Shown: in pieces, positions 8,640-48,195 of the stretch
Numbering within the stretch: the first letter of the stretch is position 1
How the letters are laid out: the number at the start of each line of letters is the position of its first letter
DNA from: an uncultured Cyclobacteriaceae bacterium
GTDB taxonomy: Bacteria > Bacteroidota > Bacteroidia > Cytophagales > Cyclobacteriaceae
Direction of reading: 5' to 3'
DNA: 64,000 nucleotides
Assembly: GCA_947492745.1 (NCBI GenBank)
Contig: CANLOE010000028.1
Span: 1-64,000 of the forward strand
Position numbers and translations under genes: made by a program
The notes under the pieces: generated by a model
Database searches by the model: none
Seen by the model: the letters and a program-made list of their open reading frames with translations, nothing else
What the model was told of the DNA's origin: nothing

Positions 8640-8640
8640 T

Positions 8641-13263: not shown

Positions 13264-13280
13264 AATATTTTTACGCAATT

Positions 13281-22175: not shown

Positions 22176-22225
22176 AAGGTAATCTAAGGTCAGCTCAGGC
22201 CAATGTAGAGGTACGTTTTACGAAA

Positions 22226-30562: not shown

Positions 30563-30576
30563 ATTTTTTTGAGCCA

Positions 30577-30628
30577 AACTATTTTTTAATCAAAAAAACC
30601 ACTACATTTACCCTTATAAAATAGTTTT
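30577..30628. promoter_or_regulatory. Candidate operator pair for the double-HTH regulator
   Basis: AAACTATTTT at the regulator start and its reverse complement AAAATAGTTT about 40 bp upstream, in an AT-rich divergent promoter region. Inverted sites spaced by about four helical turns are typical of C1-like repressors. Binding is inferred. Confidence 0.45.
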
Positions 30629-34483: not shown

Positions 34484-34666
34484 TCACCTATCGTAGCGGT
34501 GTCCGTAATAGTGGTCGTAGAACATCTTTAGCTCATACGGCTTCAAAAACTGCCTTCTACCCGTTCTGAGTCCTTTCACGTTCTTCATCTCTCTCCTTAG
34601 CTGCTCGGTAGAGAATCCGCACCTGGCCGCAAGCTCTGATTTGGTCACCCATTTATCGATTTCCAT
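34484..34666 (-). CDS. Small helix-turn-helix protein (60 aa)
   Basis: A minus-strand ORF in an otherwise plus-strand region. The sequence WVTKSELAARCGFSTEQLRR followed by a basic turn and YELKMFYDHYYG reads as a compact HTH similar to the short Bacteroidota DNA-binding proteins near the DUF4248/MerR-like group. Upstream on its strand is an A-rich leader. Its position between the early genes and the large operon, divergent to the latter, suggests that it regulates that operon. A second short HTH protein closes the operon at 44952-45218. Confidence 0.6.
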   Translation of the reverse strand: MEIDKWVTKSELAARCGFSTEQLRREMKNVKGLRTGRRQFLKPYELKMFYDHYYGHRYDR

Positions 34667-34911: not shown

Positions 34912-35400
34912 ATGATAATACCATGGATAGCCGGCGGGGCTGCGGCACTCTACGCCCTGAACTACTTCCTGAGACTCGACAAGGCTTCGGGGACGGTACA
35001 GACTGAGACAAGGGTACAGGTACACGGGGTCACCCTTTCGGGGATCACCCTGAAAGTGTATGTAACCATCAAGAACCCCAACGACATAGTGCTGAAAATG
35101 AGACGCCCATATGTGACCATCGGCTACAATGGGGAAGTACTGGGATCCTCCCTTCTCTTTGAGGGATCGGGAAGTCCACAGGACATCATCAAGATCGGAA
35201 AACAGGGACAGACACCATTTACACTGGACATGAATTTCGGCTGGTTCACGCTCATCCGCGTCATCGGGGTGGATATCGTTGAAAAGATAAGGAACAAGGA
35301 CGGTAAAAATGCCACACTGGACATCAGTGCAAAAGTGAGTACCAAGGTAAACGGCTTCCCTTACGAGGACGAAAAGAAGATAACCCTTCGGTTCCTATGA
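34912..35400 (+). CDS. Membrane-anchored LEA/WHy-like beta-domain protein
   Basis: 162 aa. N-terminal membrane helix (IIPWIAGGAAALYALNYFL), then a beta-sandwich-like domain with the pattern seen in LEA14/water-stress (WHy) domains: VTLSGITLKVYVTIKNPNDI, YVTIGYNGEVLGSSLLFEG, GQTPFTLDMNF. AAAGGGGATG gives a usable start. First gene of an operon of at least 17 genes; the stop overlaps the next start (ATGA). Single-helix anchors recur throughout this operon, so the product is probably part of one membrane-associated assembly. Confidence 0.65.
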   Translation: MIIPWIAGGAAALYALNYFLRLDKASGTVQTETRVQVHGVTLSGITLKVYVTIKNPNDIVLKMRRPYVTIGYNGEVLGSSLLFEGSGSPQDIIKIGKQGQTPFTLDMNFGWFTLIRVIGVDIVEKIRNKDGKNATLDISAKVSTKVNGFPYEDEKKITLRFL

Positions 35401-36413
35401 TCAGCAAGAAAAGAAATATCAGGTCGGGTCATGAGTACGACAGGTACTTTGCCAAGAGTATCGGAGTCGATACCGTCATCAAAAAGGACGCAAAATTGCA
35501 CCATACCCTGAACCTCATGAAGGAGATGATATGGGAGACCCTTGACGATACGGCCCGGATCGCCCCGCTCTTAAAGGGCAGGGATCTTCGGGAGACCTGT
35601 CGGAACGTCTGGCAATGGGTCTATGACCATATCCAGTACAAGCCCGACAAACGGTTCATCGAACAGGTAAGGAGGGCCATCAGGATATGGGCGGACCGAA
35701 AGACGGGCTGCGATTGCGACTGTATGAGCATGATGGTGGTCGGGATCCTGCTGAACCTCGATATAAAATGTGAGCTGTCCGTAACGGCATACCTGAACAA
35801 AAGGGAACCCTTTGCACCGCTCAGGTACAGCCATATCTATCCGATAGTACCGACACCCGATGGTGGTTACATCACGATGGACTGTGTGACCGACCGTTTC
35901 GATTTCGAGGTACCCTTTGCCAAGTGCCTTCGCTTCGAAGTGCTGGACAGGAAGAAGATACTGCCCATCGCCCCGATTTCCATGGAGGTGAGCGGAGTGG
36001 ACACCTTTGCCCTTCATGAGATCATCGAGGTATCCGATGAAGCTGACAGGCCGGGGAAAGGGAAGGCAGTGCCCGGTACCGTAGAACGGAACTATTTCAT
36101 GCCGTCGGTAAGCGTTTCGACGGATTACAGTAAACACAGCCCCGTTTTCAATCAAAATGTCTTTATGCGGGAAAATCGGGACGGTACGGGGTATCAAGAT
36201 TTAGTGTCGGTCCATGACCGGTTGATAAGGGATATCGAAGCGATCAGGGCCAAAGTGGGAAATGCCGTCAACAGGACGATAAAGCCCGACCATAGGAAAG
36301 GTCTGCCATTGGGGAAACTGCTATTGGCCTCTGCAATCGGTTACGGTACCTATTTGACGGTAAGATTTTTAACGGAACAAAACACGAAAGACAATGGAAC
36401 TTCACAGACTTGA
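35397..36413 (+). CDS. Transglutaminase-like cysteine peptidase with C-terminal membrane anchor
   Basis: 338 aa. Residues about 65-170 form a transglutaminase-like core: Cys in GCDCDCMSMMVVGIL (105-109), His146 in RYSHIYPIV and Asp162 in YITMDCVTDRF make the papain-like triad. A single membrane helix lies near the C-terminus (LLLASAIGYGTYLTVRFL). Activity could be proteolysis or cross-linking of neighbouring structural proteins, which in a particle would be maturation; this is inferred. Overlaps the genes before (4 bp) and after (20 bp). Confidence 0.7.
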   Translation: MISKKRNIRSGHEYDRYFAKSIGVDTVIKKDAKLHHTLNLMKEMIWETLDDTARIAPLLKGRDLRETCRNVWQWVYDHIQYKPDKRFIEQVRRAIRIWADRKTGCDCDCMSMMVVGILLNLDIKCELSVTAYLNKREPFAPLRYSHIYPIVPTPDGGYITMDCVTDRFDFEVPFAKCLRFEVLDRKKILPIAPISMEVSGVDTFALHEIIEVSDEADRPGKGKAVPGTVERNYFMPSVSVSTDYSKHSPVFNQNVFMRENRDGTGYQDLVSVHDRLIRDIEAIRAKVGNAVNRTIKPDHRKGLPLGKLLLASAIGYGTYLTVRFLTEQNTKDNGTSQT

Positions 36414-37665
36414 CGGTATCCCCGTTGGCGGGATCGACATCTTGGACATACAGTCACCCGATGGTGATATGGGAACGGTCGAAAGCCCGTTGAAAGGTCC
36501 CTTGCAGGACGGCACCGACGGCCTCGGACCGGTACAGGACCCCAAGATAGTGCTGACCTTTACAGGCCGGGACGGCAATACCTATCACGCGGATGCGGAC
36601 GAGAATATCTATCTGGCCCTGGACGGCCCCGGACTCGATGGTTTCTTCAAGAAGATAGGTAAAGGGATAAAGAAATTTTCAAAAAAGGTCGGAAAGGCCG
36701 CCGGGAAGGTAGGTAAAGCCTTCAACCGCTTTGTCAACCCGGCCACTATCCTGTTAAGGAACGGGTTCCTTGCCGCAATGAAGCTCAATATGTTCAAGGT
36801 ACCCGAGCGCTTGCGTTTCGGATACCTTTCGGACGATGAGGCAAGACGTAGGGGGATGGACCCCAACGGTTTTGCCAAGCTTAAAAAGGTCAGTGAAAAG
36901 GCCCACAAGATCTATACAGCGGCAGGGGGCAAAGAAAGCAACCTGAGAAAGGCGATCCTGACGGGCAAGGGCAACAGGGACCGTCTGGTGGCCCTCTCGG
37001 GAATCGGTCTGAACGGCCTCGGGCTTTCCCCCGATCTGGACCCGGATGACCGGTTTAACGATGAATTCGAGCGGTTCATCGTCGAGGCCGATGCGGATAC
37101 CGTCGAAATGGCCCTGAGCGGACAGGTACAGGTAGAGGGGATCGGTGCGGTCGCAGAGACGGGCACAGCAGTTGCCAGTGGTGTTGTTGCCGCACTGGGT
37201 ACCGCGTTGAGCAAGGTACAAGGTGTCTTTGACCGGGCGAAGCCGGTAGCGGACTCTGCAAGGACACTGGTGGACAGTGGTAGATCACTGTTCGATACGG
37301 GCAGGGATATCAGAAATACCATCAGGGATATTGCCCCCCGGCCCGTGCCAACGGACGCAATGGCCCCGGACCTGCCCCCTCCGACCTCCCCGCAGGGTAT
37401 CGGCGCAAAGGAGAGCAGGCCAGAGGGAGAGAGCTGGGCACAACGTAACAAATGGCTGCTCATTGGGGGTACAGTGGTCTTCGTGGGCGGTGGAATCGGA
37501 TATGCCTACTACAGGAACAAGAAAAACCAGGAAGAAGCAAAGAAGAAAATACCGAAGACCAAAAGGTCGCTGAACGGACCACCGAAAAGAACCTACAAAA
37601 GGAAGGCCGTGAAGGGCAGGACCGCGAATAGTGGCAATGCCATGGCCTCTAAGCTCTTATTGTAA
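36394..37665 (+). CDS. Large membrane-anchored structural-type protein
   Basis: 423 aa. After an acidic start (residues 1-75) comes a Lys-rich amphipathic segment (IGKGIKKFSKKVGKAAGKVG, about 88-112), a helical domain (115-230), an Ala/Val-rich helical stretch (GTAVASGVVAALGTALSKVQ), a Pro-rich linker and one membrane helix near 352-371 (LLIGGTVVFVGGGIGYAYY) with a basic tail. No known domain. The combination of amphipathic helices and an anchor suggests a protein lying along or inside a membrane. Its size and central place in the operon fit a main internal or membrane component of a particle; this is inference. Confidence 0.6.
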   Translation: MELHRLDGIPVGGIDILDIQSPDGDMGTVESPLKGPLQDGTDGLGPVQDPKIVLTFTGRDGNTYHADADENIYLALDGPGLDGFFKKIGKGIKKFSKKVGKAAGKVGKAFNRFVNPATILLRNGFLAAMKLNMFKVPERLRFGYLSDDEARRRGMDPNGFAKLKKVSEKAHKIYTAAGGKESNLRKAILTGKGNRDRLVALSGIGLNGLGLSPDLDPDDRFNDEFERFIVEADADTVEMALSGQVQVEGIGAVAETGTAVASGVVAALGTALSKVQGVFDRAKPVADSARTLVDSGRSLFDTGRDIRNTIRDIAPRPVPTDAMAPDLPPPTSPQGIGAKESRPEGESWAQRNKWLLIGGTVVFVGGGIGYAYYRNKKNQEEAKKKIPKTKRSLNGPPKRTYKRKAVKGRTANSGNAMASKLLL

Positions 37666-37695
37666 CAACGATATCGGATACCAAAAGAAAATGAC

Positions 37696-38322
37696 ATGAA
37701 ACAGATGACCAAAAAGGAAAAAGAAGAAAGAGAGAAGACCAAAAAGAAAAATGTCGAAAAAGCAAAAGAGGCCGGGGCCATTATCGGGTCGGGGCTGGCC
37801 AGTTACCTGCTCGCCTCTTCCATGGGCCGTCCCCTGAAACTGGGAGCCGGTCTGGCGGCACTCCTAGCAGGTGCGTTCTACAACAAGTCCTGGGTACTTT
37901 CCAGTGGTATGATCATGTTGGTCAGCCCCAATATCCCTGCAACGGGCCAACAGGGTGATGAATCCCTCGAAGGGTTCGGGGATGAACTGGACAGGGCCAA
38001 GGGGCGGGCCATGAACGCACTCAGGCTATTGGGCAAGAACTTTTATATGGACAAGATCTCCGATGAAATGAAAGAGAACATGGAGCTACAGGGCATGGAG
38101 GACGCTACCGATATCATGATGGGCCTCGGTAACTCGGTACGGGCCGAGAACTTCGACACCTCGGAGGTGGACAGTATCATTAGAGAACTGGAAGCCGGCA
38201 ATGCGGACCGGCTCATAGAACAGAGCGGTTCCGTTAACGAGGAATTTTCAGGTGTAGGGAATGCCGACATAAATGAACTGGATGGATTGGATGCGGTCAG
38301 CCTTGCCGCTGCCGCTTACTGA
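37696..38322 (+). CDS. Membrane protein of unknown function (208 aa)
   Basis: Lys/Glu-rich N-terminus (residues 1-25), then two hydrophobic segments (AGAIIGSGLASYLLASSMG and LGAGLAALLAGAFYN, then VLSSGMIMLVSPNIP), then a long soluble acidic C-terminal half. No family recognised. It begins 30 bp after the previous gene and ends 28 bp before the next, in the same operon. Likely a membrane component of the same assembly. Confidence 0.6.
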   Translation: MKQMTKKEKEEREKTKKKNVEKAKEAGAIIGSGLASYLLASSMGRPLKLGAGLAALLAGAFYNKSWVLSSGMIMLVSPNIPATGQQGDESLEGFGDELDRAKGRAMNALRLLGKNFYMDKISDEMKENMELQGMEDATDIMMGLGNSVRAENFDTSEVDSIIRELEAGNADRLIEQSGSVNEEFSGVGNADINELDGLDAVSLAAAAY

Positions 38323-38350
38323 AAATAATAACGGAAACTCAAAATAAACA

Positions 38351-38983
38351 ATGACAATGAAACGAAAATCAAGCAGAGAGCTGTTCCTGGAAATTGTGAA
38401 TGCCCATGTGCAGTTGAAGAACGAGAAAAAGCCCTTTGATCCCGAAATGGTCATGGTGGCCGAGAAGATAAAGGATGGAAGGTTACAGCTCATAGACATG
38501 GCCTATACCAGCATCAAGTACGCGGGTGACAAGGCGACCATCCACATGTTCGAGACTCAGGATGCGAAGGAAACAGGGATCACGAACGTCACACAGGCCA
38601 AGCTACAAAAGGACAGGTTGTTCCTCCCTACGGCCATCACCCTTTTGGCAGCGGCCTTTAATGGCGACCTTCCCAACTCCGACAGGGAGTGGAAGAGCCT
38701 GAAATTGAAGTCCATCTATGACTCGATCAAGAAAATCCCTGGACTTCCTCAAGGAGATGTCACCTTCACGGCCAACAAAAAGCTAATTCTGGACGAAAGG
38801 CCGATGCAGGAATTCGTGACGGACAACAACCATCAGGTGAACCTGGGAACGTACCAGATCGACAACCCCCGATTTGTCAAGGACGATATCGAGTTCGAGT
38901 TCACGATCGAGGTCGGTGAAGATCTTCCCGAAAAGGTGCTGATCAAGGTAGATCTCAACGGTACGGGTACCGCACCAGCATAA
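38351..38983 (+). CDS. Candidate major structural protein (210 aa), beta-rich C-terminal half
   Basis: Residues 1-115 are mainly helical; 120-210 are beta-rich (GDVTFTANKKLILDER, NLGTYQIDNPRFVKDDIEFE, FTIEVGEDLPEKVLIKVDLN) and end GTGTAPA. The strand pattern with 'NLGTYQIDNPR...DDIEFEFTIE' is what a jelly-roll coat protein could look like, and the protein is soluble with no anchor, unlike its neighbours. It is followed by three more small beta-rich proteins. A capsid or shell role is proposed from fold pattern and context only. Structure prediction would decide. Confidence 0.5.
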   Translation: MTMKRKSSRELFLEIVNAHVQLKNEKKPFDPEMVMVAEKIKDGRLQLIDMAYTSIKYAGDKATIHMFETQDAKETGITNVTQAKLQKDRLFLPTAITLLAAAFNGDLPNSDREWKSLKLKSIYDSIKKIPGLPQGDVTFTANKKLILDERPMQEFVTDNNHQVNLGTYQIDNPRFVKDDIEFEFTIEVGEDLPEKVLIKVDLNGTGTAPA

Positions 38984-38994
38984 GATAGTGCATT

Positions 38995-39390
38995 ATGGAG
39001 GAAGTAAAGATAGAACATATCGAACGTTACCCCTATTTCCAATTGTTCATCGATGAACCCAACAAGACCTATACCAGGGAATACGAGTTCAACAGGAACA
39101 CATTGGAGATAGTGGGCATACAGTTGACCAGCCGTTTCTTTGACAGGTTGTCGCTCAGGGGTACACAGCGCATGGAGATCGGGGGCGATACGGTTTTTGA
39201 TGAAGGACTTCCGTCCAGACTGTTCATGTCGAACGACGGGGCGGTAAGGCCGAGGTTTTTCCCCCTGAGCATTCCGGTCCCCAATGACCTGGCCCTGAAA
39301 TTCAGGTTCAGGGACCATGATCACCCTTACGCCCCTTTCGGGGACGGGTATGATGTATTTGTATCAATGATAACCAAGGAAAGGAAATGA
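38995..39390 (+). CDS. Small beta-rich protein, candidate shell or capsid component (131 aa)
   Basis: Nearly all beta by pattern: YFQLFIDEPNKTYTREYEFN, LEIVGIQLTSRFF, GTQRMEIGGDTVFDEG, FFPLSIPVPNDLALKFRFRD. The length and strand number fit a single jelly roll. Begins 11 bp after the previous gene and overlaps the next (ATGA). No known domain. It could pair with the 210-aa or 175-aa proteins in a two-protein shell, as in membrane-containing viruses with single-jelly-roll coats; this is a hypothesis. Confidence 0.5.
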   Translation: MEEVKIEHIERYPYFQLFIDEPNKTYTREYEFNRNTLEIVGIQLTSRFFDRLSLRGTQRMEIGGDTVFDEGLPSRLFMSNDGAVRPRFFPLSIPVPNDLALKFRFRDHDHPYAPFGDGYDVFVSMITKERK

Positions 39391-39914
39391 GAGAAGTAAG
39401 GGCCATTCAAGGTCTCAACGGTGAAACGCGAAAGATGCTCATCAGGAGACGGTTTGTTCCCATAGAGTTCACCATCAGCGAAAGTGGCGGTCACAGGGGC
39501 TTTGAAACCAAACTCCCGGCCAATGTCTCCAAGGTTGTGGGTTTCTATGCGACCGTTGACACTGGCAGAAGAACGGAGGCCGGGGACAGGTACTATCTGG
39601 GGGTCGGCAGGGATAGCGGTCTTGCCGGGGACGCGGACTTTATCACGGGGCTTGATACGGGGACCATCGAAGAAGCCCGAACCGATTTCTCGATCTATGC
39701 GGAGTCCGGTGAATGGGTCTTCTATGCACAGCCCGAACGACTTGATTTCAGCGTCTATGCCACCAATGACGGCATAGGTCTGAGCAGGGTGGCGACCATC
39801 AAGGTAACGGACAGGGCTACGGGAAAAACTGAGGACTATGCGGTGTGGCGCAGCCGAAGCCCCGGACCGGATAACCTTGACTTTGTAGTGGAGTACAGTG
39901 AATCCGGTATGTGA
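39387..39914 (+). CDS. Beta-rich protein, candidate shell or spike component (175 aa)
   Basis: Starts MREVRAIQGLNGETRKMLIR; the rest is beta-strand-rich (FVPIEFTISESGGHRGFE, VVGFYATVDTGRRTEAGDRY, WVFYAQPERLDFSVYATND, RVATIKVTDRATGKTEDYAV) with no membrane helix or signal. Overlaps the preceding gene by 4 bp and meets the next start (TGATG). No family recognised. The compact beta sandwich fits a coat or receptor-binding protein; the context is the only support for that. Confidence 0.5.
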   Translation: MREVRAIQGLNGETRKMLIRRRFVPIEFTISESGGHRGFETKLPANVSKVVGFYATVDTGRRTEAGDRYYLGVGRDSGLAGDADFITGLDTGTIEEARTDFSIYAESGEWVFYAQPERLDFSVYATNDGIGLSRVATIKVTDRATGKTEDYAVWRSRSPGPDNLDFVVEYSESGM

Positions 39915-40192
39915 TGGTCAGGGCAGAATTGAGATTAAGGAACCAAAGGGGTGTTTTCTGGGCCGGACAGATTGGGGATATCATTAAGACCGATACGGGC
40001 AAATATGGACAAGGCGAGAAATCATTGGGCATCCACCTGGACAATGCCGAGCTGGTACCCTTGGACGTAAGGACGGACGATGGGGAGGAATACATCCAAG
40101 GTTCCTTGAGGGACCTTGGGCTATCCGAAAATGACCTGCCCTACAGGTTCAGGTTGTGGCTCTTGGTCGAAGAAGAACCGATAGAACTTTGA
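39914..40192 (+). CDS. Small protein of unknown function (92 aa)
   Basis: Start at the ATG overlapping the previous stop. Beta-rich, starting MVRAELRLRNQRGVFWAGQI, with a KOW/SH3-like spacing of strands; acidic C-terminal half (VRTDDGEEYIQGSLRDLGL). No membrane segment. It sits in the run of small soluble beta proteins between the two membrane-protein groups of the operon. Function unknown. Confidence 0.5.
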   Translation: MVRAELRLRNQRGVFWAGQIGDIIKTDTGKYGQGEKSLGIHLDNAELVPLDVRTDDGEEYIQGSLRDLGLSENDLPYRFRLWLLVEEEPIEL

Positions 40193-40197
40193 ATGCA

Positions 40198-40509
40198 ATG
40201 GTAGAAGATTTCATAGTAGTACTGGCCTCACAACGTGTCAGGGAGCGTGGGTTCAGCAGGTACAGACTGAGCCATCGTGACCTGAGCATTGCCCCAAATG
40301 AAAAGCGCGAGGTTAGGGCATACAACGAGATATGGTTCCTTGTGCATGCTGGCGAAGGGATACTGATCAGTAGTGACTATGGAGAATATGACCATGACAA
40401 TGGGGCATCGGGCGAGAACATCCATGAACACGGTGACATCATCACCATCACCAATGGATCGGCAACGGTAAAACAGGCGAAATTCATTCAGGTGCAACTA
40501 CAGGGATAA
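40198..40509 (+). CDS. Small beta-rich protein (103 aa), candidate shell component
   Basis: Start at the ATG 5 bp after the previous stop; an upstream in-frame extension overlaps the previous gene. Beta pattern with acidic loops: DFIVVLASQRVRERGFSRYR, IWFLVHAGEGILISSDYGEY, HGDIITITNGSATVKQAKFI. The fold could be cupin-like or a small jelly roll. No family recognised. Fourth consecutive beta-rich small protein in the operon. Confidence 0.5.
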   Translation: MVEDFIVVLASQRVRERGFSRYRLSHRDLSIAPNEKREVRAYNEIWFLVHAGEGILISSDYGEYDHDNGASGENIHEHGDIITITNGSATVKQAKFIQVQLQG

Positions 40510-40513
40510 GAAT

Positions 40514-41395
40514 ATGGAAAGCGAAAGGATAAAAAGACCCGCATCCATGCGGCTGAGCGATGAGGAGTACGAGGAAATGGAAGCCATGGGACTCAACAAC
40601 GAGAGTGCCTACATGCGGCACAAATGGAACGAGTACCGAACAGGAGAATTACAAGGTATGGACAGCACGGAAAGCCCAAAGGACCTTGGGACGGCACTGG
40701 CACTGCAAAGGGCCGAATTCGAAAACCAGAGACTGCGGGAAAAGGTCGATGAGCTTTCCCGTAGTAAAGAAGAAACGATGAACGGAATCGGGGACCAGGT
40801 GGGACAGATGCTCAGGGACGAACTCATGAAGCGGGACCATGAGAACCTGAAAAAGGAAAACGAAAGGCAGGGCAAAGAGATAGACAGGTTAGAGGCCGAA
40901 CTGAGGAAGTCGGAGAAGCTTGTGGATGACAAGAGTGGTGAGGTCGCGGAAATGGTGAAGAAGCTCGGATACATCGAATTGGGAAAGGCTCTATTGCCCT
41001 CTGCGATAAACGGACTGGCCAAACGCTATCCGAAACAGTTGCAGGGACTGGCCTCTACCCTTGGTGAGCTGGGGGGTGAAATGGCTGCGCTGCCCGAAGC
41101 CTCGGCCAGCATGGACAGCGAACAGGAACAGCTACTTGCGATAGCGGAATACCTGCACGACCTGTTCAAGGACAGCTTCGACCGGTTCATTGCTGTGGCC
41201 GATCTCATGGGACAGGCGCAGAGAATGGAAGAAACGACATTACAAAAGGTCAACTACTACATCTCACAATTAATCAAGGTAAGGAACTCAAACAACAAAC
41301 AGGATGTCGATCAAAACAATCATAGCACAGCGGTCAAAGATGGCAAAGAAGAAGCAAACAGAACTGAGGCTGAAAACCGAGAGCAGGAACGATGA
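40514..41395 (+). CDS. Coiled-coil protein (293 aa)
   Basis: Residues 1-45 begin with an RHH-like segment (IKRPASMRLSDEEYEEMEAM); 60-150 form a long coiled coil (LREKVDELSRSKEETMNGIG, LKKENERQGKEIDRLEAELR); 155-255 are helical. No membrane helix, Gln/Asn-rich C-terminus. Likely a scaffold or assembly factor within the operon. Its end overlaps the next ORF. No sequence family recognised. Confidence 0.6.
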   Translation: MESERIKRPASMRLSDEEYEEMEAMGLNNESAYMRHKWNEYRTGELQGMDSTESPKDLGTALALQRAEFENQRLREKVDELSRSKEETMNGIGDQVGQMLRDELMKRDHENLKKENERQGKEIDRLEAELRKSEKLVDDKSGEVAEMVKKLGYIELGKALLPSAINGLAKRYPKQLQGLASTLGELGGEMAALPEASASMDSEQEQLLAIAEYLHDLFKDSFDRFIAVADLMGQAQRMEETTLQKVNYYISQLIKVRNSNNKQDVDQNNHSTAVKDGKEEANRTEAENREQER

Positions 41396-41534
41396 GCAGA
41401 CCGAACAGCTCCACAGGGCATTGGAGACCCTGCTCGAAGAATTCGGGGCAGAAGGGGTCATCAAAATGGTGGACATCTTTCAGCGCGACGGGTTTGTCAG
41501 GAGCATGGTGAGGTTGAAACTGAAAACCAGATAG
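41340..41534 (+). CDS. Small basic helical protein (64-76 aa)
   Basis: The ATG at 41340 (MAKKKQTELRLKTESRNDEQ) is preferred; an ATG at 41304 would add 12 residues. It overlaps the coiled-coil gene by more than 50 bp in another frame. Helical C-terminus (LHRALETLLEEFGAEGVIKM). No family recognised. The overlap makes this less certain than its neighbours, but the frame stays open and ends 4 bp before the next start. Confidence 0.5.
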   Translation: MAKKKQTELRLKTESRNDEQTEQLHRALETLLEEFGAEGVIKMVDIFQRDGFVRSMVRLKLKTR

Positions 41535-41538
41535 CCCC

Positions 41539-42063
41539 ATGGCGGCCCCTTTAATGGTAAGGGCGGCACTGGCGGCAGATGCCATCCGCCAGAACAGAAA
41601 GGAACGTAAACGGGATACCGAACCTTTGCCAGTGGACAGGACCACGGCCATAATAATGGCCCGTGAAAAACTTAGACAGGTCAAGTTCAGAAATAGGTTG
41701 AGGAACGGGGCTTTGCTGACGGGAGGCACCATCATAACGGTGATCGTCGGTGTGCATTTTTACAACAAATGGCGAAAGGCGCAGAGCGAAAAGAACGCGC
41801 TGGACGGGGGAAGCGGTGCAAGGTTCGCCCTGCGGATAAAGATGGCCTTCGAAAACGATTATCTATGGGGCTGGGGCGTTGATACCGATGCGCTTTTCAA
41901 AGCGCTCGAAGATATCCCCGATAGGAAAACAATGTTACGGACGGAAGCCGCCTATTTCGCGCAGAACAATACACCACTTGCAGCCGACCTCAAAGACGAG
42001 CTGAGCATAGCAAATTTTGAAAAGGCAACGGGCATAATAGACTTGGTAAAGTTAAAAACATAA
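41539..42063 (+). CDS. Single-helix membrane protein (174 aa)
   Basis: Basic N-terminus (residues 1-50), one membrane helix about 57-75 (GALLTGGTIITVIVGVHFYN), then a soluble helical domain with aromatic residues (FENDYLWGWGVDTDALFKAL). The C-terminal part (about 110-170) has the look of a lysozyme-like or peptidoglycan-associated helical domain, but no catalytic motif can be assigned. It is encoded 4 bp after the previous gene and 4 bp before the next, so tightly cotranscribed. Confidence 0.6.
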   Translation: MAAPLMVRAALAADAIRQNRKERKRDTEPLPVDRTTAIIMAREKLRQVKFRNRLRNGALLTGGTIITVIVGVHFYNKWRKAQSEKNALDGGSGARFALRIKMAFENDYLWGWGVDTDALFKALEDIPDRKTMLRTEAAYFAQNNTPLAADLKDELSIANFEKATGIIDLVKLKT

Positions 42064-42067
42064 TATC

Positions 42068-43045
42068 ATGAACGAACAGGAACAATTGGACCTTGAAGCA
42101 CTACAGGCACTGGAAGAGGACGAGGCCAGAAAACGCAGGTTTGTAAAGATCGCATTCGTTTCGGGAGGGGCGCTGGTGGGGGGATTCATCCTTTACAGTC
42201 TAGTGAAGAACAAGTTGGGAAGGAACACCACCATAGTGCAACAGCTACCTCCCGAAGTCAAGGTCAGGGAAATAGTCAAAGAGAACAGTAGCAGGTTCCC
42301 CCTCGGCATGGGATCGAGGGGCGAGCTGGTCGCCATGCTACAGAACGCACTGCTCGCTATGGGAAAAGGAGCAGCAGCAGCAATCAAAAGCACCAGTATT
42401 CGGAACGGTAAGCCTGACGGTATTTTTGGAGCAGGTACCTTACGTGCCCTGCTTGCCGCAGGCCAACCTTCCGTCATCGATGCAAAAAAATTCGAGGAGA
42501 TTGTAGCAAAGGGGAAGAGCAAACGGGCCGCTTCCGTTGATAGCAGCTTTGATGGCCGCAAAATAGCAAACGGAATCAAAGCGGCCATCAAGGGCAACGA
42601 TATCTTTGCCGTGCTCGATGAGCTGGAAAAGATAGCAAACGTGAAGGAGTACCAAGCTGTGAGCAAGTACTTCAAAGGTGTCTTTATCGAAAGCACTTTG
42701 GTGACCAGCCTTGTCAACGCCCTGCTCTCGGTGGCCTTCGTCAAGAGCGAACCCGCTAAGGAAAAGATACGAAAGGAATTCAAGAGGATGAACCTTGTCG
42801 AGCGGGACGGGAAATGGTTCCTCGAAGGTCTCATGGGCCTGTCGGGGGGTACGGATACGTACCGTTTGGCGGTCACCAAGAAATATACCGTTCTAAAGAA
42901 TGCCAATGGCGACCTTGTAGTGCCACCGCTGGAAAAACGCAAAGTGGTGGGCTATGTCATCGGGGGCAAACAGGGTGTTTCGAAGTTGATGACACCGGAT
43001 AGAAAGGTGGTGTACGCCCCCTCCCAAAACCTGAAAATCATCTAA
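42068..43045 (+). CDS. Membrane-anchored protein with peptidoglycan-binding-like domain
   Basis: 325 aa. Acidic N-terminus, membrane helix about 28-45 (FVSGGALVGGFILYSLV), then residues 75-130 with the PG_binding_1-like pattern (LGMGSRGELVAMLQNALLAM, GKPDGIFGAGTLRALLAA), in which a repeat number, a D-G-x-F-G-x-x-T core and flanking helices are seen. Residues 150-325 are a second domain, helical then beta (VLKNANGDLVVPPLEKRKVV). It could anchor the particle or the element's machinery to the cell wall or act in lysis. The PG-binding call is moderate. Confidence 0.65.
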   Translation: MNEQEQLDLEALQALEEDEARKRRFVKIAFVSGGALVGGFILYSLVKNKLGRNTTIVQQLPPEVKVREIVKENSSRFPLGMGSRGELVAMLQNALLAMGKGAAAAIKSTSIRNGKPDGIFGAGTLRALLAAGQPSVIDAKKFEEIVAKGKSKRAASVDSSFDGRKIANGIKAAIKGNDIFAVLDELEKIANVKEYQAVSKYFKGVFIESTLVTSLVNALLSVAFVKSEPAKEKIRKEFKRMNLVERDGKWFLEGLMGLSGGTDTYRLAVTKKYTVLKNANGDLVVPPLEKRKVVGYVIGGKQGVSKLMTPDRKVVYAPSQNLKII

Positions 43046-43070
43046 TAACAACAATAAACAATCGAGAACA

Positions 43071-43445
43071 ATGAAAAATCGACTTATTCATTACCTGAAA
43101 GATCTATGGGACTATGTGAAGGTATGGCGCGAGCTGTCCTCCATCGGTATCGGGCTGCTCTTGTGGATGAAGAGCCATGTCCTATTGCGCTACATCGATC
43201 CGACCAGCGCCACCTATGACGCAGGGGTGTTCCAATTGGTGCTATTTGCCACTATCTCCCTCTTTGTCCTTCATGGGGTGGTAAGGATCCTGATGAAACT
43301 AATCTGGCCTTCCATGGACAACTATCTCAGAATCGAATTTACGAACGACTTTAAAACTATCGAAAAATGGCAAAAGCTAAAATTATCTGCTTTCATCTTC
43401 TTTGCTTTCTTGCTCTCAGCAGTGCTCTTGGCCAAGGCCATATAG
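43071..43445 (+). CDS. Small membrane protein, holin-like
   Basis: 124 aa with three hydrophobic segments (ELSSIGIGLLLWMKSHVLL, VFQLVLFATISLFVLHGVVR, LSAFIFFAFLLSAVLLAKAI). The size, topology and position directly before a secreted CHAP hydrolase fit a holin or spanin-like lysis protein. The two genes overlap by 79 bp, with the hydrolase starting inside this gene. Other small membrane proteins would look the same, so this rests on context. Confidence 0.55.
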   Translation: MKNRLIHYLKDLWDYVKVWRELSSIGIGLLLWMKSHVLLRYIDPTSATYDAGVFQLVLFATISLFVLHGVVRILMKLIWPSMDNYLRIEFTNDFKTIEKWQKLKLSAFIFFAFLLSAVLLAKAI

Positions 43446-43957
43446 GGCAAAAGCAGCGCAGCTTTGCTTGCTATGGGTCGAGCGAAGCGGACCAAAGGGC
43501 AGAGCTAGAGCGGACGTTCTCCGCAGAGGTCGGGGTCAGGGAGCAGGGCGGAGCAAACAGCGGTAGCAGGGTCGAGCAGTACCTTGCTGCTACCAAGCTG
43601 ACCAAGGGTTATGCTTGGTGTGCTTCCTTTGTCAGTTGGTGCTATCTACAAGCTGGCATCGATGCCCCCATATCGGCTTGGGTACCCTCATTTGCCATCA
43701 GCAAGAACATGGTGTACAAACGCGGTGAGTATGTCAAGAAGATACCCGAAACGGGCGATGTCTTCCTGATCTGGTTCCCCAAGTTGGGAAGGCCCGCCCA
43801 TATCGGCTTTGTCGAACGGTGGGGCAACAGGACGGTGATCACAGTCGAGGGCAATACCAATGACAACGGGTCGCGTGAGGGCGATGGGGTCTATCGAAAA
43901 AGAAGGCTGCAAAAGCAGGTATGGGCCGTGTGTGACTTTATCAACAATGCTCCGTGA
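43367..43957 (+). CDS. Secreted CHAP-domain peptidoglycan hydrolase
   Basis: 196 aa with a signal peptide (IICFHLLCFLALSSALGQ), then a CHAP/NlpC-like domain: catalytic Cys in GYAWCASFVSWCY (about residue 85), His in GRPAHIGFVE (about 143), and a following polar residue in VITVEGNTND. The enzyme cleaves the peptide or amide bonds of peptidoglycan in the periplasm. A Sec-type signal means it can reach its substrate without a holin. It lies between the holin-like gene (79-bp overlap) and the transpeptidase-like gene (11-bp overlap). Lysis or wall remodelling for release or entry. Confidence 0.8.
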   Translation: MAKAKIICFHLLCFLALSSALGQGHIGQKQRSFACYGSSEADQRAELERTFSAEVGVREQGGANSGSRVEQYLAATKLTKGYAWCASFVSWCYLQAGIDAPISAWVPSFAISKNMVYKRGEYVKKIPETGDVFLIWFPKLGRPAHIGFVERWGNRTVITVEGNTNDNGSREGDGVYRKRRLQKQVWAVCDFINNAP

Positions 43958-44690
43958 TACGCTCAGGATATTAGGGAAAAAGGAGCATGTCATCTACACG
44001 CAGCCTTACAGGTTGAACATCGTTGCCACACGCAGCAGATCGCTGCGGAGCAACAGGTTCGATGACCGCTTGGAGGTCTTCTTTGTCAACAGCAGGGGAA
44101 AGTGGGAACACCATGCTTTCCCCTGTACCACCGATCCGGGACAGTACTGGCTCGATAACCCGATGCATCCCAATGGTACCGCTTTCCTCAAAAACGGGCA
44201 GTACATCGATGCCTACGGCATGGGGTGGCATAGGGGAAGGTACGAGGCTCTTGTCCAGATTGCACCCGTGACAGTAATAAGGAACTATGACCGCAGCGGC
44301 CTTTTCAACTGGACGGAGAGCGGGTTCGAGGACAGGGGCAACTTTGGGATAAACATCCACAGGGCATTCGGGGTCGGGACCGCTGTCACCGTTGACCGGA
44401 GTAGCGCAGGTTGTATCGTATTGGCAGATACCAAAGACTATGACAGGTTCATCTGTCTCTGCAAAAAGCATCGCAGGACACACGGTAACAGCTTCGCGGT
44501 GACCCTGATCGATTTCAGGGACATCAGGAGAAGGGATGCGAGTTTAGTGGCTTGGGGATTGGCATCGGGGTTGACTCTTGGGGCTTTGGCTTATTATATC
44601 TATGAAACTGACAAAAAATTCAAAAAAAGACGCATTGGCATTGATAGGCTCCCTATCGGGGCTTATGGTCGCCAAATGGTGCAAACGTGA
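43947..44690 (+). CDS. L,D-transpeptidase (YkuD)-like or related cysteine peptidase with C-terminal membrane helix
   Basis: About 247 aa from the ATG that overlaps the hydrolase stop; the open frame upstream belongs to the overlap. A catalytic-type motif NFGINIHRA followed by VDRSSAGCIVLAD fits the H...SxGC arrangement of YkuD-type transpeptidases and similar phage wall enzymes, with His near 160 and Cys near 180. A membrane helix follows near the C-terminus (LASGLTLGALAYYIY). With the CHAP enzyme it forms a wall-active pair in the operon. Which bond it makes or cuts cannot be read from sequence. Confidence 0.65.
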   Translation: MLRDTLRILGKKEHVIYTQPYRLNIVATRSRSLRSNRFDDRLEVFFVNSRGKWEHHAFPCTTDPGQYWLDNPMHPNGTAFLKNGQYIDAYGMGWHRGRYEALVQIAPVTVIRNYDRSGLFNWTESGFEDRGNFGINIHRAFGVGTAVTVDRSSAGCIVLADTKDYDRFICLCKKHRRTHGNSFAVTLIDFRDIRRRDASLVAWGLASGLTLGALAYYIYETDKKFKKRRIGIDRLPIGAYGRQMVQT

Positions 44691-44844
44691 GGATGTCTAT
44701 CCTTTTGTTCTCATCGGTGGTTTCCTCGGCAATTTCATCGGTGAGGAATACCTACCGGAGGATAAGATGACGGTAGATGTCCCGTATAAAGGAATCATAA
44801 ATGAAAGACGTAAAATTCGGGGTGGCAAAGGCCGAAAACCCTGA
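44602..44844 (+). CDS. Small membrane protein (80 aa)
   Basis: Start at the ATG at 44602 (MKLTKNSKKDALALIGSLSG); it lies within the end of the previous gene. One or two hydrophobic segments (LALIGSLSGLMVAKWC and FVLIGGFLGNFIGEEYL) with glycine spacing, then a basic tail. The pattern resembles small membrane proteins of virions or lysis modules. Function unknown. Confidence 0.5.
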   Translation: MKLTKNSKKDALALIGSLSGLMVAKWCKREDVYPFVLIGGFLGNFIGEEYLPEDKMTVDVPYKGIINERRKIRGGKGRKP

Positions 44845-44977
44845 AAAACTGATAGCGACCTTTGACTTCATTATTGACGCAAGGGAAATGCACAAACGCT
44901 TGGTAAAATGCGGTTGGGACGGACAATTGATAGTGGTAAAGAGGTTGAAAGATGGAACAGTTATTAAATTATCCTAA
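44801..44977 (+). CDS. 58-aa protein of unknown function
   Basis: A short gene starting ATG at 44801 (MKDVKFGVAKAENPEKLIAT) and ending ...DGTVIKLS. It overlaps the preceding gene by 44 bp and the next by 26 bp, both in other frames. Alternating beta/alpha pattern (KFGVAKAENP, LIATFDFIID, GQLIVVKRL), no cysteine pair or membrane helix. Dense overlap packing like the rest of the operon supports that it is real. Confidence 0.5.
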   Translation: MKDVKFGVAKAENPEKLIATFDFIIDAREMHKRLVKCGWDGQLIVVKRLKDGTVIKLS

Positions 44978-45218
44978 AGCAGAAAAGAAAGGGGCATTGA
45001 AGATGATGCCCTTGGAGCTGCACGGGGAAGAGGTGCCAAGGGTAAGGACCTATTGGAAGTCAGAGCTGGCCACGATGTACAGGGTCAGTCCCAAGACGTT
45101 CAGCTCTTGGCTGGATAGGTTCATAGAACAGCTCTATGCCCTGGGATATAAGAGGACTAGTAAGAAATTGTATCCAAATATGGTTGCGCTCATCTTTGAC
45201 AAGTTGGGGGAGCCTTGA
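44952..45218 (+). CDS. Small HTH protein, DUF4248-like (88 aa)
   Basis: Residues about 35-85 read as a helix-turn-helix (SELATMYRVSPKTFSSWLDR), similar to short Bacteroidota DNA-binding proteins of the DUF4248 type; the last third is helical (KLYPNMVALIFDKLGEP). Last gene of the operon; it converges with the minus-strand defence pair, only 8 bp from the end of the PutAbiC gene. It could be the operon's own regulator together with the HTH protein at 34484-34666. Confidence 0.65.
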   Translation: MEQLLNYPKAEKKGALKMMPLELHGEEVPRVRTYWKSELATMYRVSPKTFSSWLDRFIEQLYALGYKRTSKKLYPNMVALIFDKLGEP

Positions 45219-45226: not shown

Positions 45227-46222
45227 TCAGTTGCCAGAATGTAGACTGTAGTTGTAATAGTCCTTGGGTATTAGTGGTCCTTTAATTTTATTTGGGTTGT
45301 AAGCCGAGGAATCATAATAATTTTCATTGCTTGTCCAAGATGAATCATGTAAATCAGTATTGTCCAAATTCTTAAGAAGCGAGTATCGCTCAATATAGCC
45401 TTTGAATTTTTTTCCTAATTCGCTCAACCCATTATAGAATAGCCATTTCAGCTCATAATCAGACAATTGAGACCTAATGATACAAGTGTATTTATATTTT
45501 GAAAGGTGTTTTAAGTATTGTAATTCTTGTTGGTGTTGAGGATGGGCCACTGATGTCCTAATATCCTGACTTAATGGTATTAAGTCATTTTCATCCACAA
45601 ATTTGATTAATCTGTACAAGTTTCTGTAGTAATGTCCATAATTAGTTCTAACAAGTTCGTAACACGCCATATAATCACCCTCCCAGCTATGTTTCTGGAT
45701 GCCTTCAAACTTTATGTCTTTCAGTAGTTCATAGGTCACATTGAAAACTTCCCTCCCGTTGAACACGCCCTCATTTGCGGCAACTTTGCTCCTTAGCTCA
45801 TTTTCAAAATTATTGATAAGATCCCTGTGGTGTAAGGCGTTCCATGACATTGAATTAACAATATCGTGATGAGTCTTTAACAAATTGAAAAATGTGTTTT
45901 CAAACTGTTGTAGTTTCAAAGTATTGTTCTGAATCTTGAATTCTTGTCTTGTTTCTCGCAACTCTTCTCTTTGAAGCCTCAATTCCCTACTTTGCAGGAT
46001 TATCGTATATATCACACCTCCAAATGCCAAACCTGAAAACAGGGCATTGACCGCACCGAATGAGTCGCCGAATGTTCCTTGCATATTGAGCTGTCCGAAA
46101 TGCTTGCTTATAACGGGCCATGAGATTCCCCACAAGATTATCACGCCTAGTGCAACAAGTATGGGTACCCATAGTTTGATCTTTGAGTAATTGATATCCT
46201 GCTCAGTATTTTTATCTGCCAT
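45227..46222 (-). CDS. PutAbiC-family phage abortive-infection protein
   Basis: 331 aa from the ATG at 46222; a longer open frame runs into the upstream gene. Two N-terminal membrane helices (residues about 16-36 and 58-78) flank the family signature GTFGDSFGAVNALFSGLAFG; a coiled coil follows (LQSRELRLQREELRETRQEF), then the soluble domain with NYGHYYRNLYRLIKFV and QLSDYELKWLFYNGLSELG. Length and motifs fit PF16872 (putative AbiC). Such proteins cause growth arrest or cell death on phage infection. Overlaps the nuclease-like gene upstream by 11 bp, so the two form an operon opposite to all neighbours, as expected for a cargo defence pair. Confidence 0.88.
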   Translation of the reverse strand: MADKNTEQDINYSKIKLWVPILVALGVIILWGISWPVISKHFGQLNMQGTFGDSFGAVNALFSGLAFGGVIYTIILQSRELRLQREELRETRQEFKIQNNTLKLQQFENTFFNLLKTHHDIVNSMSWNALHHRDLINNFENELRSKVAANEGVFNGREVFNVTYELLKDIKFEGIQKHSWEGDYMACYELVRTNYGHYYRNLYRLIKFVDENDLIPLSQDIRTSVAHPQHQQELQYLKHLSKYKYTCIIRSQLSDYELKWLFYNGLSELGKKFKGYIERYSLLKNLDNTDLHDSSWTSNENYYDSSAYNPNKIKGPLIPKDYYNYSLHSGN

Positions 46223-47213
46223 TTGGGTTTGTTTTGATCTCGTATACATAACTGAAGTTTTCAATGAAATTTCCTGAACGGTTTTTTCTATTGAAGGTAT
46301 AAAGGTGCAGTCCATCAATGGAACATTGACCTGCTTCGCTCAATTTTTTATTGTTTTTGGTCAAGGGCTTGATCTCCACGGTCCCTTGGCAACCGTTGCG
46401 GTTGCAGCTTCCCCTCAGTTTGTATACATTGATAGATTCTTCGTTTTTCACTAGATACGCTCTTTCATCACATAATGAGGGATATTTATTCTTCCTGTTG
46501 AACCAAACAGCCAATACCTTATGATTCGTAAATGTGATTACAGGTATCGCTGCAAGGACGACCATCATCAGGTAAAATAATACTACATTGTGAAATACCT
46601 TGAAAAAAAAAGCAGTTAGACCAATACCTAAAACGGTTAGAACTAAAATTGTGAAAAGAGAAAATGATTTCATTGCGGTATTTCGCAATACGGCTTTGTC
46701 CATTTCAATCCAAGGAACCTTTTCGTAGCGTATGGGCATTGATTCGGGATTCGGGTCGTACGGGTCAATGTTGAAAAGTCTGCATTTTTCCTTAATCGGT
46801 AAACCTTGGACCATTGGAATCAACTTTTCAGGGCCAATGTATTCCACTGCTTCAAGGTTGAACTCAGCTTTTATCTTTTGGATTTCTGGCGGATCCGTGC
46901 CCAATATATCGCTGCTACAAACAAAGGTCATTTTCTTGACATTGACCTGGACATTGAGACAGCCTTGGGCATCACCCCTGAATTTTTTGATAATCTCGCT
47001 GGGCTTTGGATTCTTGCCACCATACATGTGAAAATATTCACCAGTATCTTCTATATAACCGTCATTGCTCCCATCCTTCACATATTTTCTGGTGGGGTTG
47101 AACTTTGAACCATAATGGGCGAGAAAAAGCCTCTGACAGAACGTCTGAAATTTCCACCCATCCATTCCTCTGATATTATCGAAAAGATTATCACTATTGA
47201 AAAAGTCTCTCAT
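46212..47213 (-). CDS. Restriction-endonuclease-like protein with two membrane helices
   Basis: 333 aa. Residues 10-150 resemble the PD-(D/E)XK-like N-terminal domain of ABC-3C-type defence proteins: DGWKFQTFCQRLFLAHYG, KDGSNDGYIEDTGEYFHMYG, then a helix and a second strand-rich half ending in LFNIDPYDPN. The usual Gln of the 'YFQ' motif is His here, so activity is uncertain. Residues about 182-206 and 212-232 are membrane helices. The C-terminal domain (235-333) contains LRGSCNRNGCQGTVEI and is beta-rich. Gene order and the 11-bp overlap tie it to PutAbiC: probably the sensor or nuclease half of a two-gene defence system. Confidence 0.7.
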   Translation of the reverse strand: MRDFFNSDNLFDNIRGMDGWKFQTFCQRLFLAHYGSKFNPTRKYVKDGSNDGYIEDTGEYFHMYGGKNPKPSEIIKKFRGDAQGCLNVQVNVKKMTFVCSSDILGTDPPEIQKIKAEFNLEAVEYIGPEKLIPMVQGLPIKEKCRLFNIDPYDPNPESMPIRYEKVPWIEMDKAVLRNTAMKSFSLFTILVLTVLGIGLTAFFFKVFHNVVLFYLMMVVLAAIPVITFTNHKVLAVWFNRKNKYPSLCDERAYLVKNEESINVYKLRGSCNRNGCQGTVEIKPLTKNNKKLSEAGQCSIDGLHLYTFNRKNRSGNFIENFSYVYEIKTNPNGR

Positions 47214-47363
47214 CCTCCAATGATATTATCAAATGCAGCAAGGGTCTTTAATGAAGTGGGCATGGTCTTAATTATTTAGTTCGGTCGCTCAAGGCAAGAA
47301 AAGACTATTTAACGTTTTTACAGATAAATCGCAAAAATCAAGCCCTTCAATTAAAAAATTGAA

Positions 47364-47383
47364 TCCCGCAATAACCCGAAACC
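47364..47383 (+). promoter_or_regulatory. Shared upstream motif, copy 1
   Basis: TCCCGCAATAACCCGAAACC, 47 bp before the methyltransferase ATG at 47431. Copies of this motif occur at 48238 and 60488, each 30-40 bp before a start codon. Regulator or RNA-polymerase site is not known. Confidence 0.6.
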
Positions 47384-47430
47384 ATATTCCTGTATGCCTC
47401 TACACTTGTCCTAAACTAAAAGGACAAGAA

Positions 47431-48195
47431 ATGCAACGTAAGAGCCAGAACGAAATCAACAAGGAAATAGAGGCACTGATCGAAGAAAAGGATAGGTTGG
47501 GAAGGGGTTATAGGTACGAGGACAAGCTTTTCATTGACCGATACCGTGGTTCGGGCGGAGCTGGAGCTTCCGGAGCTAAAGGCAGGGGGCTGCTCTTTGA
47601 ATACTACACGCCAGACTATCTGGTATCACTGATGTGGCAGCTCGCAGAACATCACGGCTTTCAGGGCGGGAACGTTCTGGAACCATCTTGCGGCACGGGC
47701 AGGTTCTTCAAACCCGCAGGCCCCGATGTGAACTTTACTGGATTTGAGACCAATAAGACCAGTGCAAGGATCGCACAGATACTTTTTCCAAAAGCTGAGG
47801 TGCATAACCTGTATTTTGAACAGGCTTTCATGGAAGCTCCATGGTACAGAGCACGCCTGAAAAAAGAGCTGACATGGTTAAAAGGCTCACCATTTGATAT
47901 GGTCATTGGCAATCCGCCCTTTGGAACCTTCAAGAGCAGATACAGTAGTCAGTTCAGGCACCCCAAGGTAATGCAGATTGAGATATTTTTTATGTACTAT
48001 GGTCTACGGCTATTGAAAAAGGGTGGTTTGCTGGTGTACCTGATACCCCCAGGATTTATGAGGACAGGGAGCAAATACGAAAAGATCAAGAACGAGATGG
48101 GCCTTATCTGTGAACTGCTGGACGCATACCATCTGCCCCCCATCTTCAATAAGACCGGCATTGCGACCGATATCATTGTCCTGAAAAGAAAGTGA
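47431..48195 (+). CDS. N6-adenine DNA methyltransferase (Class I, NPPF type)
   Basis: About 254 aa from the ATG at 47431, which follows AGGACAAGAA; an in-frame TTG upstream overlaps the shared motif and is rejected. Motif I NVLEPSCGTGRFF (about residue 80) binds AdoMet and NPPF in MVIGNPPFGTFKS (about 160) is the catalytic motif of N6-adenine enzymes. The C-terminal part (YGLRLLKKGGLLVYLIPPGF) completes the fold. No separate target-recognition domain is visible, so specificity may be loose. It precedes the C5-methyltransferase/helicase and is divergent from the PutAbiC pair. A protective role for the element's own DNA is likely. Confidence 0.85.
   Translation: MQRKSQNEINKEIEALIEEKDRLGRGYRYEDKLFIDRYRGSGGAGASGAKGRGLLFEYYTPDYLVSLMWQLAEHHGFQGGNVLEPSCGTGRFFKPAGPDVNFTGFETNKTSARIAQILFPKAEVHNLYFEQAFMEAPWYRARLKKELTWLKGSPFDMVIGNPPFGTFKSRYSSQFRHPKVMQIEIFFMYYGLRLLKKGGLLVYLIPPGFMRTGSKYEKIKNEMGLICELLDAYHLPPIFNKTGIATDIIVLKRK

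Follow-up and report, generated by a model that had tools for sequence, protein, structure and literature searches.

What is built by a compact row of small, mostly unrecognised genes is the question raised by positions 34912–45218 of a 64,000-nucleotide stretch of DNA (the window), taken from contig CANLOE010000028.1 of an uncultured Cyclobacteriaceae bacterium of the phylum Bacteroidota (assembly GCA_947492745.1). An earlier note on this DNA had read the row as a seventeen-gene operon for a membrane-containing virus with single-jelly-roll coats or, as a second option, for an unknown envelope-crossing machine. The operon lies within an element at 22547–63380, which is a complete-looking provirus of 40.8 kb, with the operon as its virion and lysis block. 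In all likelihood, the element is the provirus of a temperate double-stranded DNA (dsDNA) virus with a tailless, icosahedral, and probably membrane-lined particle, of a broad lineage resembling Salisaeta icosahedral phage 1 (SSIP-1); we infer the particle itself and its internal membrane from the genes. The membrane-containing virus is supported by the predicted fold of the coat candidate (p5), by the attachment (att) repeats bounding the element, by relatives among proviruses, plasmids, and IMG/VR contigs, and by remote homology to SSIP-1, and the envelope-crossing machine gained no support.

Operon and coat candidate

The + strand of 34912–45218 carries 18 head-to-tail open reading frames (ORFs) of at least 60 amino acids, named p1 to p18 in order; the count of seventeen stands once the last gene (p18, a DUF4248 protein) is set aside. 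Coding sequence occupies 97.9% of the region, and the intergenic gaps are 30 bp or less, except for 107 bp ahead of p18. The genes were compared among 87 related loci (80 named genome contigs and 7 IMG/VR contigs), which are partly non-independent with some identical sequences (70 distinct p5 proteins were kept), and a few of which are short contigs with p1–p3 only; early contig ends explain some absences. Chance is excluded as the origin of the operon, because its genes recur in these 87 loci with their order broadly kept. Most widely present are p1 (86 loci), p5 (81), p6 (80), p10 (77), and p9 (75), followed by p16 (64), p17 (56), p11 (39), p14 (29), and p8 (only 11). Library scans with Pfam and PHROGs, covering 30 proteins of the window, recognised few products of the operon (LEA_2-like p1, a weak transglutaminase match in p2, CHAP in p15, phrog_3000 in p16, and DUF4248 in p18), and the sole NCBIfam match among ten proteins was the CHAP-like TIGR02594, below the cut-off.

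The candidate major capsid protein, p5 (38351–38983), matched neither Pfam nor PHROGs; because PHROGs does not recognise it, routine phage annotation would miss the coat. Its profile found nothing at E 1 or better among PDB sequences, and tblastn gave only E 0.7 or worse in phage records and no match in plasmids, although profiles nonetheless find p5 in two Persicobacter plasmids. The AlphaFold2 model, computed with 64 sequences, has a mean predicted local distance difference test score (pLDDT) of 94.5 and a predicted template modelling score of 0.89, and shows a single jelly roll. With VIA-align, the coat of Sulfolobus polyhedral virus 1 (SPV1) ranked first (Z 8.3; 3.5 Å; 149 residues), and the list continued with Paramecium bursaria chlorella virus 1 (PBCV-1; Z 8.1), Haloarcula hispanica icosahedral virus 2 (HHIV-2; 7.6), Haloarcula californiae icosahedral virus 1 (HCIV-1; 7.5), SH1 (7.2), P23-77 VP17 (6.5), and FLiP (6.4). 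Foldseek returned three matches at E < 0.001, namely p72 of African swine fever virus, the FLiP penton, and PBCV-1. Thus, where the earlier note had proposed single-jelly-roll coats and pointed to structure prediction as the check, the model of p5 came out as a jelly roll that matches the coats of SPV1, HHIV-2, HCIV-1, SH1, and P23-77. We assign p5 as a jelly-roll coat because of the viral setting, the long SPV1 match, and the presence of coats of five single-jelly-roll viruses in the list. The predicted fold belongs to the single-jelly-roll type that builds upright capsomers, the upright stance of p5 in a capsid being putative. The best match in BFVD was I1ZBH9 (211 amino acids, E 1.1e-4), which equals SSIP-1 gp46 in length and may be that protein. 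At one IMG/VR locus (L160, 2715–4186), two tandem ORFs match the p5 profile, as expected of a duplicated coat gene.

Downstream of p5 lie p6 (38995–39390), p7 (39387–39914), p8 (39911–40192), and p9 (40156–40509), a small conserved protein. The earlier description of four consecutive small, beta-rich proteins was borne out in part: p6 is all-beta in its AlphaFold2 model (pLDDT 90.5), and p7 and p8 each have a segment in common with it (by hhalign, 91% over 46 columns for p7 and 69% over 44 columns for p8), while the assignment of p9 remains that of the earlier reader. Next to p5, p6–p8 make up a second group of beta proteins. Alignment A4 represented the p6 family with 57 of 72 p6 proteins in addition to that of the window. 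The best structural match of p6 was chain b of HHIV-2 (Z 8.7 over 110 residues), the product of HHIV-2 gene 22, which the available part of one source identifies as the penton (PMC6414509). It is tentatively suggested from the model that p6 is a penton.

Uncharged hydrophobic stretches were found in seven proteins of the window, p1 (34912–35400), p3 (36394–37665), p4 (37696–38322), p12 (41539–42063), p13 (42068–43045), p14 (43071–43445), and p16 (43860–44690), the stretch of p1 being N-terminal and the anchor of p16 C-terminal. Anchors were judged by conservation in 20 close relatives; a hydropathy shuffle control failed to separate anchors from chance. The stretch is kept in 20 of 20 relatives for p3, p12, and p13, in 19 of 19 for p14, and in 17 of 20 for p16, as compared with 2 for p1 and 3 for p4, so that the proposed figure of at least six anchored proteins is reached by the window itself and reduced to five when good conservation is asked for. 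Relatives of p17 (13) and p2 (11 of 20) have a hydrophobic stretch, without one in the window copies.

The lysis genes lie at the end of the operon. p15 (43367–43957) is a CHAP endolysin, as had been proposed (CHAP, 1e-8; phrog_9589 endolysin, 8e-21). The holin-like character of p14 is seen in two strongly hydrophobic stretches, with no family match of weight. The L,D-transpeptidase-like label given earlier to p16 corresponds to a match to Tlde1_dom at E 0.048, below the cut-off, and the protein matches phrog_3000 (function unknown; 2e-29) and the endolysin phrog_33083 (4e-12); it is possibly L,D-transpeptidase-like. In addition, p13 has a possible peptidoglycan-binding segment (phrog_1493 endolysin, 0.006).

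Provirus, relatives, and link to SSIP-1

The element is bounded by an exact direct repeat of 28 bp (22547–22574 and 63353–63380), which occurs in two copies only in the 7.1-Mb genome when up to 3 mismatches are allowed (control, 0). A tyrosine integrase gene (22610–24007, +; Phage_integrase, 7e-19; phrog_1 integrase, 4e-31) begins 35 bp inward of the left copy, and a repressor-like protein with two helix-turn-helix (HTH) domains is encoded at 29678–30577 on the − strand (HTH_31, 1e-14; HTH_3, 3e-11; phage repressor PHROGs). An integrated temperate element is thus indicated by the integrase and the flanking att repeats, and two relatives lie at tRNA genes. These are the two copies in one genome (G372), at tRNA-Leu(gag) and tRNA-Asp(gtc), which are flanked by tRNA-end repeats of 27 and 22 bp placed ~54.3 and ~54.5 kb apart; they have seven blocks in common at 88–94% identity with unmatched stretches between them, a pattern typical of site-specific, mosaic proviruses.

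Relatives are widespread and patchy. Of 390 genomes from the host's order, 40 have p2 (the host itself among them), and the p5 profile matched 9 of 395 genomes of the phylum, including its own genome and one doubtful match with stop codons. Iterative profiles over 43 loci (40 neighbourhoods, SSIP-1, and two plasmids) detected p5 (38 loci), p1 (36), p12 (33), and p13 (29), their order being broadly preserved. A species-wide scan with a single pattern from the p2 alignment, in which each of 84,980 species was represented by a single genome, yielded 199 candidate stretches, of which 192 encode p2 relatives and 80 were kept for comparison; the genera include Fulvivirga, Aquimarina, Marivirga, Nafulsella, Chitinophaga, and Niastella, together with many metagenome-assembled genomes (MAGs). 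Cultured Fulvivirga imtechensis and Aquimarina mytili, for instance, have the operon in full. In plasmid records, p2 has five matches, all in Persicobacter and all typed non-mobilizable, and the two plasmids examined are circular, of 47.6 and 48.8 kb. Seven IMG/VR contigs carry relatives of the operon; single-protein scans of IMG/VR with p5 or p2 gave nothing useful. The operon is also found in two MAGs titled Rickettsiales (L077) and Thalassovita (L078; the title is probably wrong). The chromosome CP058703 holds two copies (L130 and L145) with split or short p1, p10, p12, or p13, apparently decaying proviruses.

The link to SSIP-1 is carried by p2 and by an ATPase outside the operon. When p2 (35397–36413) was compared by tblastn with 50,697 phage records, the only matches were two SSIP-1 records, at gp34 (6e-6), and a p2 profile built without SSIP-1 sequence found gp34 at 1.9e-18 among all 57 SSIP-1 proteins. 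The transglutaminase-like domain claimed for this protein is below the Pfam cut-off (E 0.005), but it is upheld by the columns of Cys107, His146, and Asp162, which do not vary across all 27 p2 domains of alignment A2. The RecA-like ATPase encoded at 60547–62103 (+), the candidate packaging motor, matches phrog_6891 ATPase (1e-5) and has a variant P-loop by alignment; a Walker-A pattern scan gave three doubtful matches, missed this P-loop, and was not used as a negative. An ATPase profile of six sequences, none from SSIP-1, found gp40 at 1.1e-9 (hhalign, 96.5%), and was counted instead of an earlier profile that had drawn gp40 in and was hence non-independent. In five loci, including the two Persicobacter plasmids, a homologue of the ATPase domain is encoded close to the operon.

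Comparisons with p5 suggest a third, weak link. Alignment A1, made of the window sequence plus 31 of the 38 p5-bearing loci known at that point, found gp45 at 2e-4 among 30 of the 57 SSIP-1 proteins. With hhalign against all 57, gp45 was best at 6e-5 for A1 and 2e-4 for a larger set, with probabilities of 65% and 47%, the next-best protein being at E 0.05; alignment A3 comprises the window and 63 of the 70 distinct p5 proteins. In a search of 14,472 ORFs, gp45 ranked directly after the p5 family. gp34, gp40, and gp45 are all annotated as 'structural protein', as are 13 of the 57 SSIP-1 proteins in total. gp45 and gp46 are paralogues (mutual E ~1e-9), in line with their being the major coat proteins of SSIP-1, which we presume them to be. 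Other operon profiles gave nothing convincing against SSIP-1 (p3–gp39, 0.0015; p18–gp2, 0.003; tail of p2–gp53, 0.009; short pieces), and a match between the N6 methyltransferase of the element and gp43 (BLAST, 1e-4; phmmer, 0.014) was not counted as a link because the domain is generic. A search of IMG/VR with gp45 found one contig only, at 100% identity and of the same size as SSIP-1.

The available parts of the SSIP-1 literature describe a tailless, membrane-containing phage, isolated as a virion (T=49), with a genome sharing hardly any similarity with the content of GenBank. Its circular dsDNA is 43.8 kb, as compared with 40.8 kb for the element, and its host genus belongs to Rhodothermota, a phylum related to that of the window's host. 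SSIP-1 differs in having two coat-like paralogues, as opposed to the one p5 of the element, and in its gene order.

Comparison with known systems and rival readings

The earlier note had seen no terminase, portal, tail, or FtsK-like gene, and this absence was confirmed on the contig for terminase and FtsK and among the 30 scanned proteins for portal and head families (PHROGs). In whole-genome searches, FtsK (PF01580) gave five matches, all on other contigs (the control was positive in 14 of 14 genomes); A32 (PF04665), one match on another contig (7 of 14); and terminase (PF03237), a single match, below threshold and likewise outside this contig (6 of 14). No HerA family of Pfam was found among the 30 proteins, the HerA models having been run on these proteins and not genome-wide. 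Tail-labelled PHROG matches among the 30 proteins were those of p15, which are lysin domains only (1e-5 and 0.013), and a tape-measure match of p3 (E 0.09). Relaxase and mating-pair families were likewise lacking among the 30 proteins in the Pfam scans. Caudoviricetes are defined by a terminase and an HK97-fold capsid protein, whereas there is no terminase on the contig and p5 is a predicted jelly roll.

Among established groups, the Sphaerolipoviridae and their relatives (SH1, HHIV-2, and HCIV-1; Thermus P23-77; Helvetiavirae, Singelaviria) are alike in the upright single-jelly-roll fold of the coat, which p5 shows by prediction, and also in the penton-like p6 and in having several small membrane-anchored proteins. 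They are unlike in that the element has no FtsK or A32 match and the window has no second coat gene of the p5 type. Sphaerolipoviridae are described with FtsK/HerA ATPases in the available part of PMC8328091. We do not file the element in Helvetiavirae, because an ATPase of the FtsK/HerA type is missing and a RecA-like ATPase is found instead; it should nevertheless work like Helvetiavirae. SPV1, the best structural match of p5, is an archaeal virus; the accessible text of PMC8812541 describes SPV1 as a state preceding the duplication of the coat gene and both SPV1 and FLiP as lacking packaging ATPases, whereas the element has a candidate ATPase. FLiP and PhiCjT23 (Flavobacterium) are, as far as their partly available descriptions go, lipid-containing phages of Bacteroidota, which differ in their single-stranded DNA (~9 kb in FLiP) and double jelly roll, and the FLiP coat reaches just Z 6.4 to p5. 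Further background was drawn from parts of PMC6260650, PMC5332951, PMC6356626, PMC12714852, PMC4958249, and PMC9719478.

Several observations weigh against a provirus of an SSIP-1-like virus. None of the usual packaging ATPases was found, and the window has a single p5 gene, as opposed to two coat proteins in SSIP-1 and the sphaerolipoviruses. The Z-scores of p5 (6 to 8.3) are close to the level of unrelated beta proteins, PHM enzymes scoring as high as 7.6 among the same matches. BcsB and GOLD domains lead the Foldseek ranking for p6, and other beta proteins lie within one Z unit of its HHIV-2 match. The p5–gp45 similarity is fragile: its place among the 14,472 ORFs corresponds to 12 bits and only E 0.1; with gp45 as the query, the best non-SSIP-1 matches include p5-family ORFs, none of them better than E 0.4; pooling gp45 and gp46 lowered the p5 match to a probability of 30%; and a narrower p5 profile found no gp45 match. 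A second genome with two copies (G021) has no convincing att pair, its copies being 78–81% identical over 7 blocks, with a 23-bp A+T-rich match at one copy and 15-bp matches at chance level at the other. Moreover, SSIP-1 was isolated as a virion, whereas the element is an integrated provirus known here from genes alone.

Could the operon have left viral life altogether? In a domesticated module, virus no longer, it would serve the host as a particle or an envelope-crossing machine. The decayed look of L130 and L145 (split or short p1, p10, p12, or p13) agrees with such a fate, as does the fact that the searches turned up no Bacteroidota particle belonging to this group. Domestication is, however, quite improbable in view of the integrase, the repressor-like gene, and the exact att repeats around the window copy, the two copies in G372 at two tRNA genes, the presence of relatives among viral contigs and as circular plasmids, and the patchy spread (p2, 40 of 390 genomes; p5, 9 of 395). 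The deposition of the Persicobacter relatives as plasmids, and the lack of an isolate, would also suit a non-viral integrative plasmid that has capsid-like genes and makes no particle. This we consider still less probable, since the coat, penton-like, and lysis genes and the homologues of SSIP-1 virion proteins stay together in order, no relaxase or mating-pair family was found among the 30 proteins, and all five Persicobacter records are typed non-mobilizable. The least probable reading, to which we give hardly any credence, is an ordinary tailed prophage whose head and tail genes went unrecognised. Tailed phages often carry holin-like, CHAP, and integrase genes, and the tail-lysin matches of p15 and the tape-measure match of p3 could be counted in its favor; however, the contig has no Terminase_6N match, although the same search is positive in 6 of 14 controls, the 30 proteins include no portal or head family, and p5 is a predicted jelly roll and not an HK97 fold.

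If the element is a provirus of an SSIP-1-like virus, its life cycle may be pictured as follows. On induction, the integrase would excise a 40.8-kb circle. Capsomers of p5 would surround a membrane vesicle bearing p3, p12, p13, and p16, p6 would close the fivefold vertices, and the RecA-like ATPase would package the DNA into the particle. p2 may be a virion enzyme of the Cys-His-Asp type (its homologue gp34 is annotated as structural) that aids passage through the cell wall, perhaps with p13. Progeny would be released by the holin-like p14 and the CHAP lysin p15, perhaps with p16.

In a wider frame, we tentatively consider it possible, although not probable, that temperate viruses without tails make up a large and unclassified lineage across Bacteroidota, with one upright single-jelly-roll coat protein and with a RecA-like motor for DNA packaging unlike the FtsK/HerA motors of classified single-jelly-roll viruses. 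Such a lineage would preserve to this day the condition that preceded duplication of the coat gene, a duplication evident in SSIP-1 and the sphaerolipoviruses. Among the literature matches listed (titles and beginnings of abstracts, with partial coverage), there was no report of such proviruses in Bacteroidota. SSIP-1, a former orphan and the single isolate known among such viruses, now stands beside a widespread group of proviruses with cultured hosts, which offers further upright single-jelly-roll bacterial viruses for structural work and makes DNA packaging by a RecA-like ATPase with one coat gene testable now.

Remaining genes and surroundings

Within the operon, p1 is LEA14-like (LEA_2, 5e-5, just below the cut-off), and p3 is fused to p2 in many relatives. 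Profile matches of p2–p3, p12–p13, and p1–p3 were rejected as signs of paralogy; they stem from fused ORFs pooled in the profiles. p10 (40514–41395) has only weak matches to coiled-coil families, which leaves the earlier label of a coiled-coil scaffold as a resemblance. The small proteins p11 (41304–41534) and p17 (44578–44844) precede p18 (44952–45218; PF14053, 4e-9). The ORFs of p9, p11, and p16 probably start too early, since their homologues begin inside them in alignments (~14 codons later for p9 and ~29 codons later for p16). Directly upstream of the operon, a small divergent ORF lies at 34484–34666 on the − strand, and many relatives have a divergent p18-type (DUF4248-like) gene at the same place.

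Elsewhere in the provirus, a possible RepL-like replication initiator is encoded at 25274–26584 (+; PF05732, E 0.06, below the cut-off). Two modification genes follow the operon. The N6 adenine DNA methyltransferase (47359–48195, +; N6_Mtase, 2e-11) has homologues in 6 of 43 related loci. The 1889-residue product of 48501–54170 (+) is a fusion of a C5 cytosine methyltransferase (PF00145, 6e-69) with a SNF2-type helicase (SNF2, 2e-12), and also matches a DarB-like antirestriction PHROG. Its helicase part was found near the operon in 5 of the 43 loci, where the helicase ORF comes without the methyltransferase; at L051, the methyltransferase has a match in an ORF of its own. Two genes on the − strand at 45227–47213, just after the structural operon, resemble a pair of cargo or defence genes, one having a weak AbiP match (E 9e-5). 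The 737-residue protein of 56763–58976 has at its C-terminus a sorting domain for type IX secretion (Por_Secre_tail, 5e-12) and may be cargo that is secreted or displayed by the host.

Just beyond both ends of the provirus lies an interspersed host repeat of ~230 bp (22223–22443 and 63650–63878). This longer, imperfect pair (89% identity) was rejected as the att site, as it has 39 genome matches over many contigs, several of them clustered on C33, C87, C131, and C123. In the chromosomal flank at 316–13278, two large proteins (5464–7272 and 8641–11100) presumably resemble siderophore synthetases of the IucA/IucC type, and are accompanied by what we take to be a decarboxylase-like gene and transporter genes.

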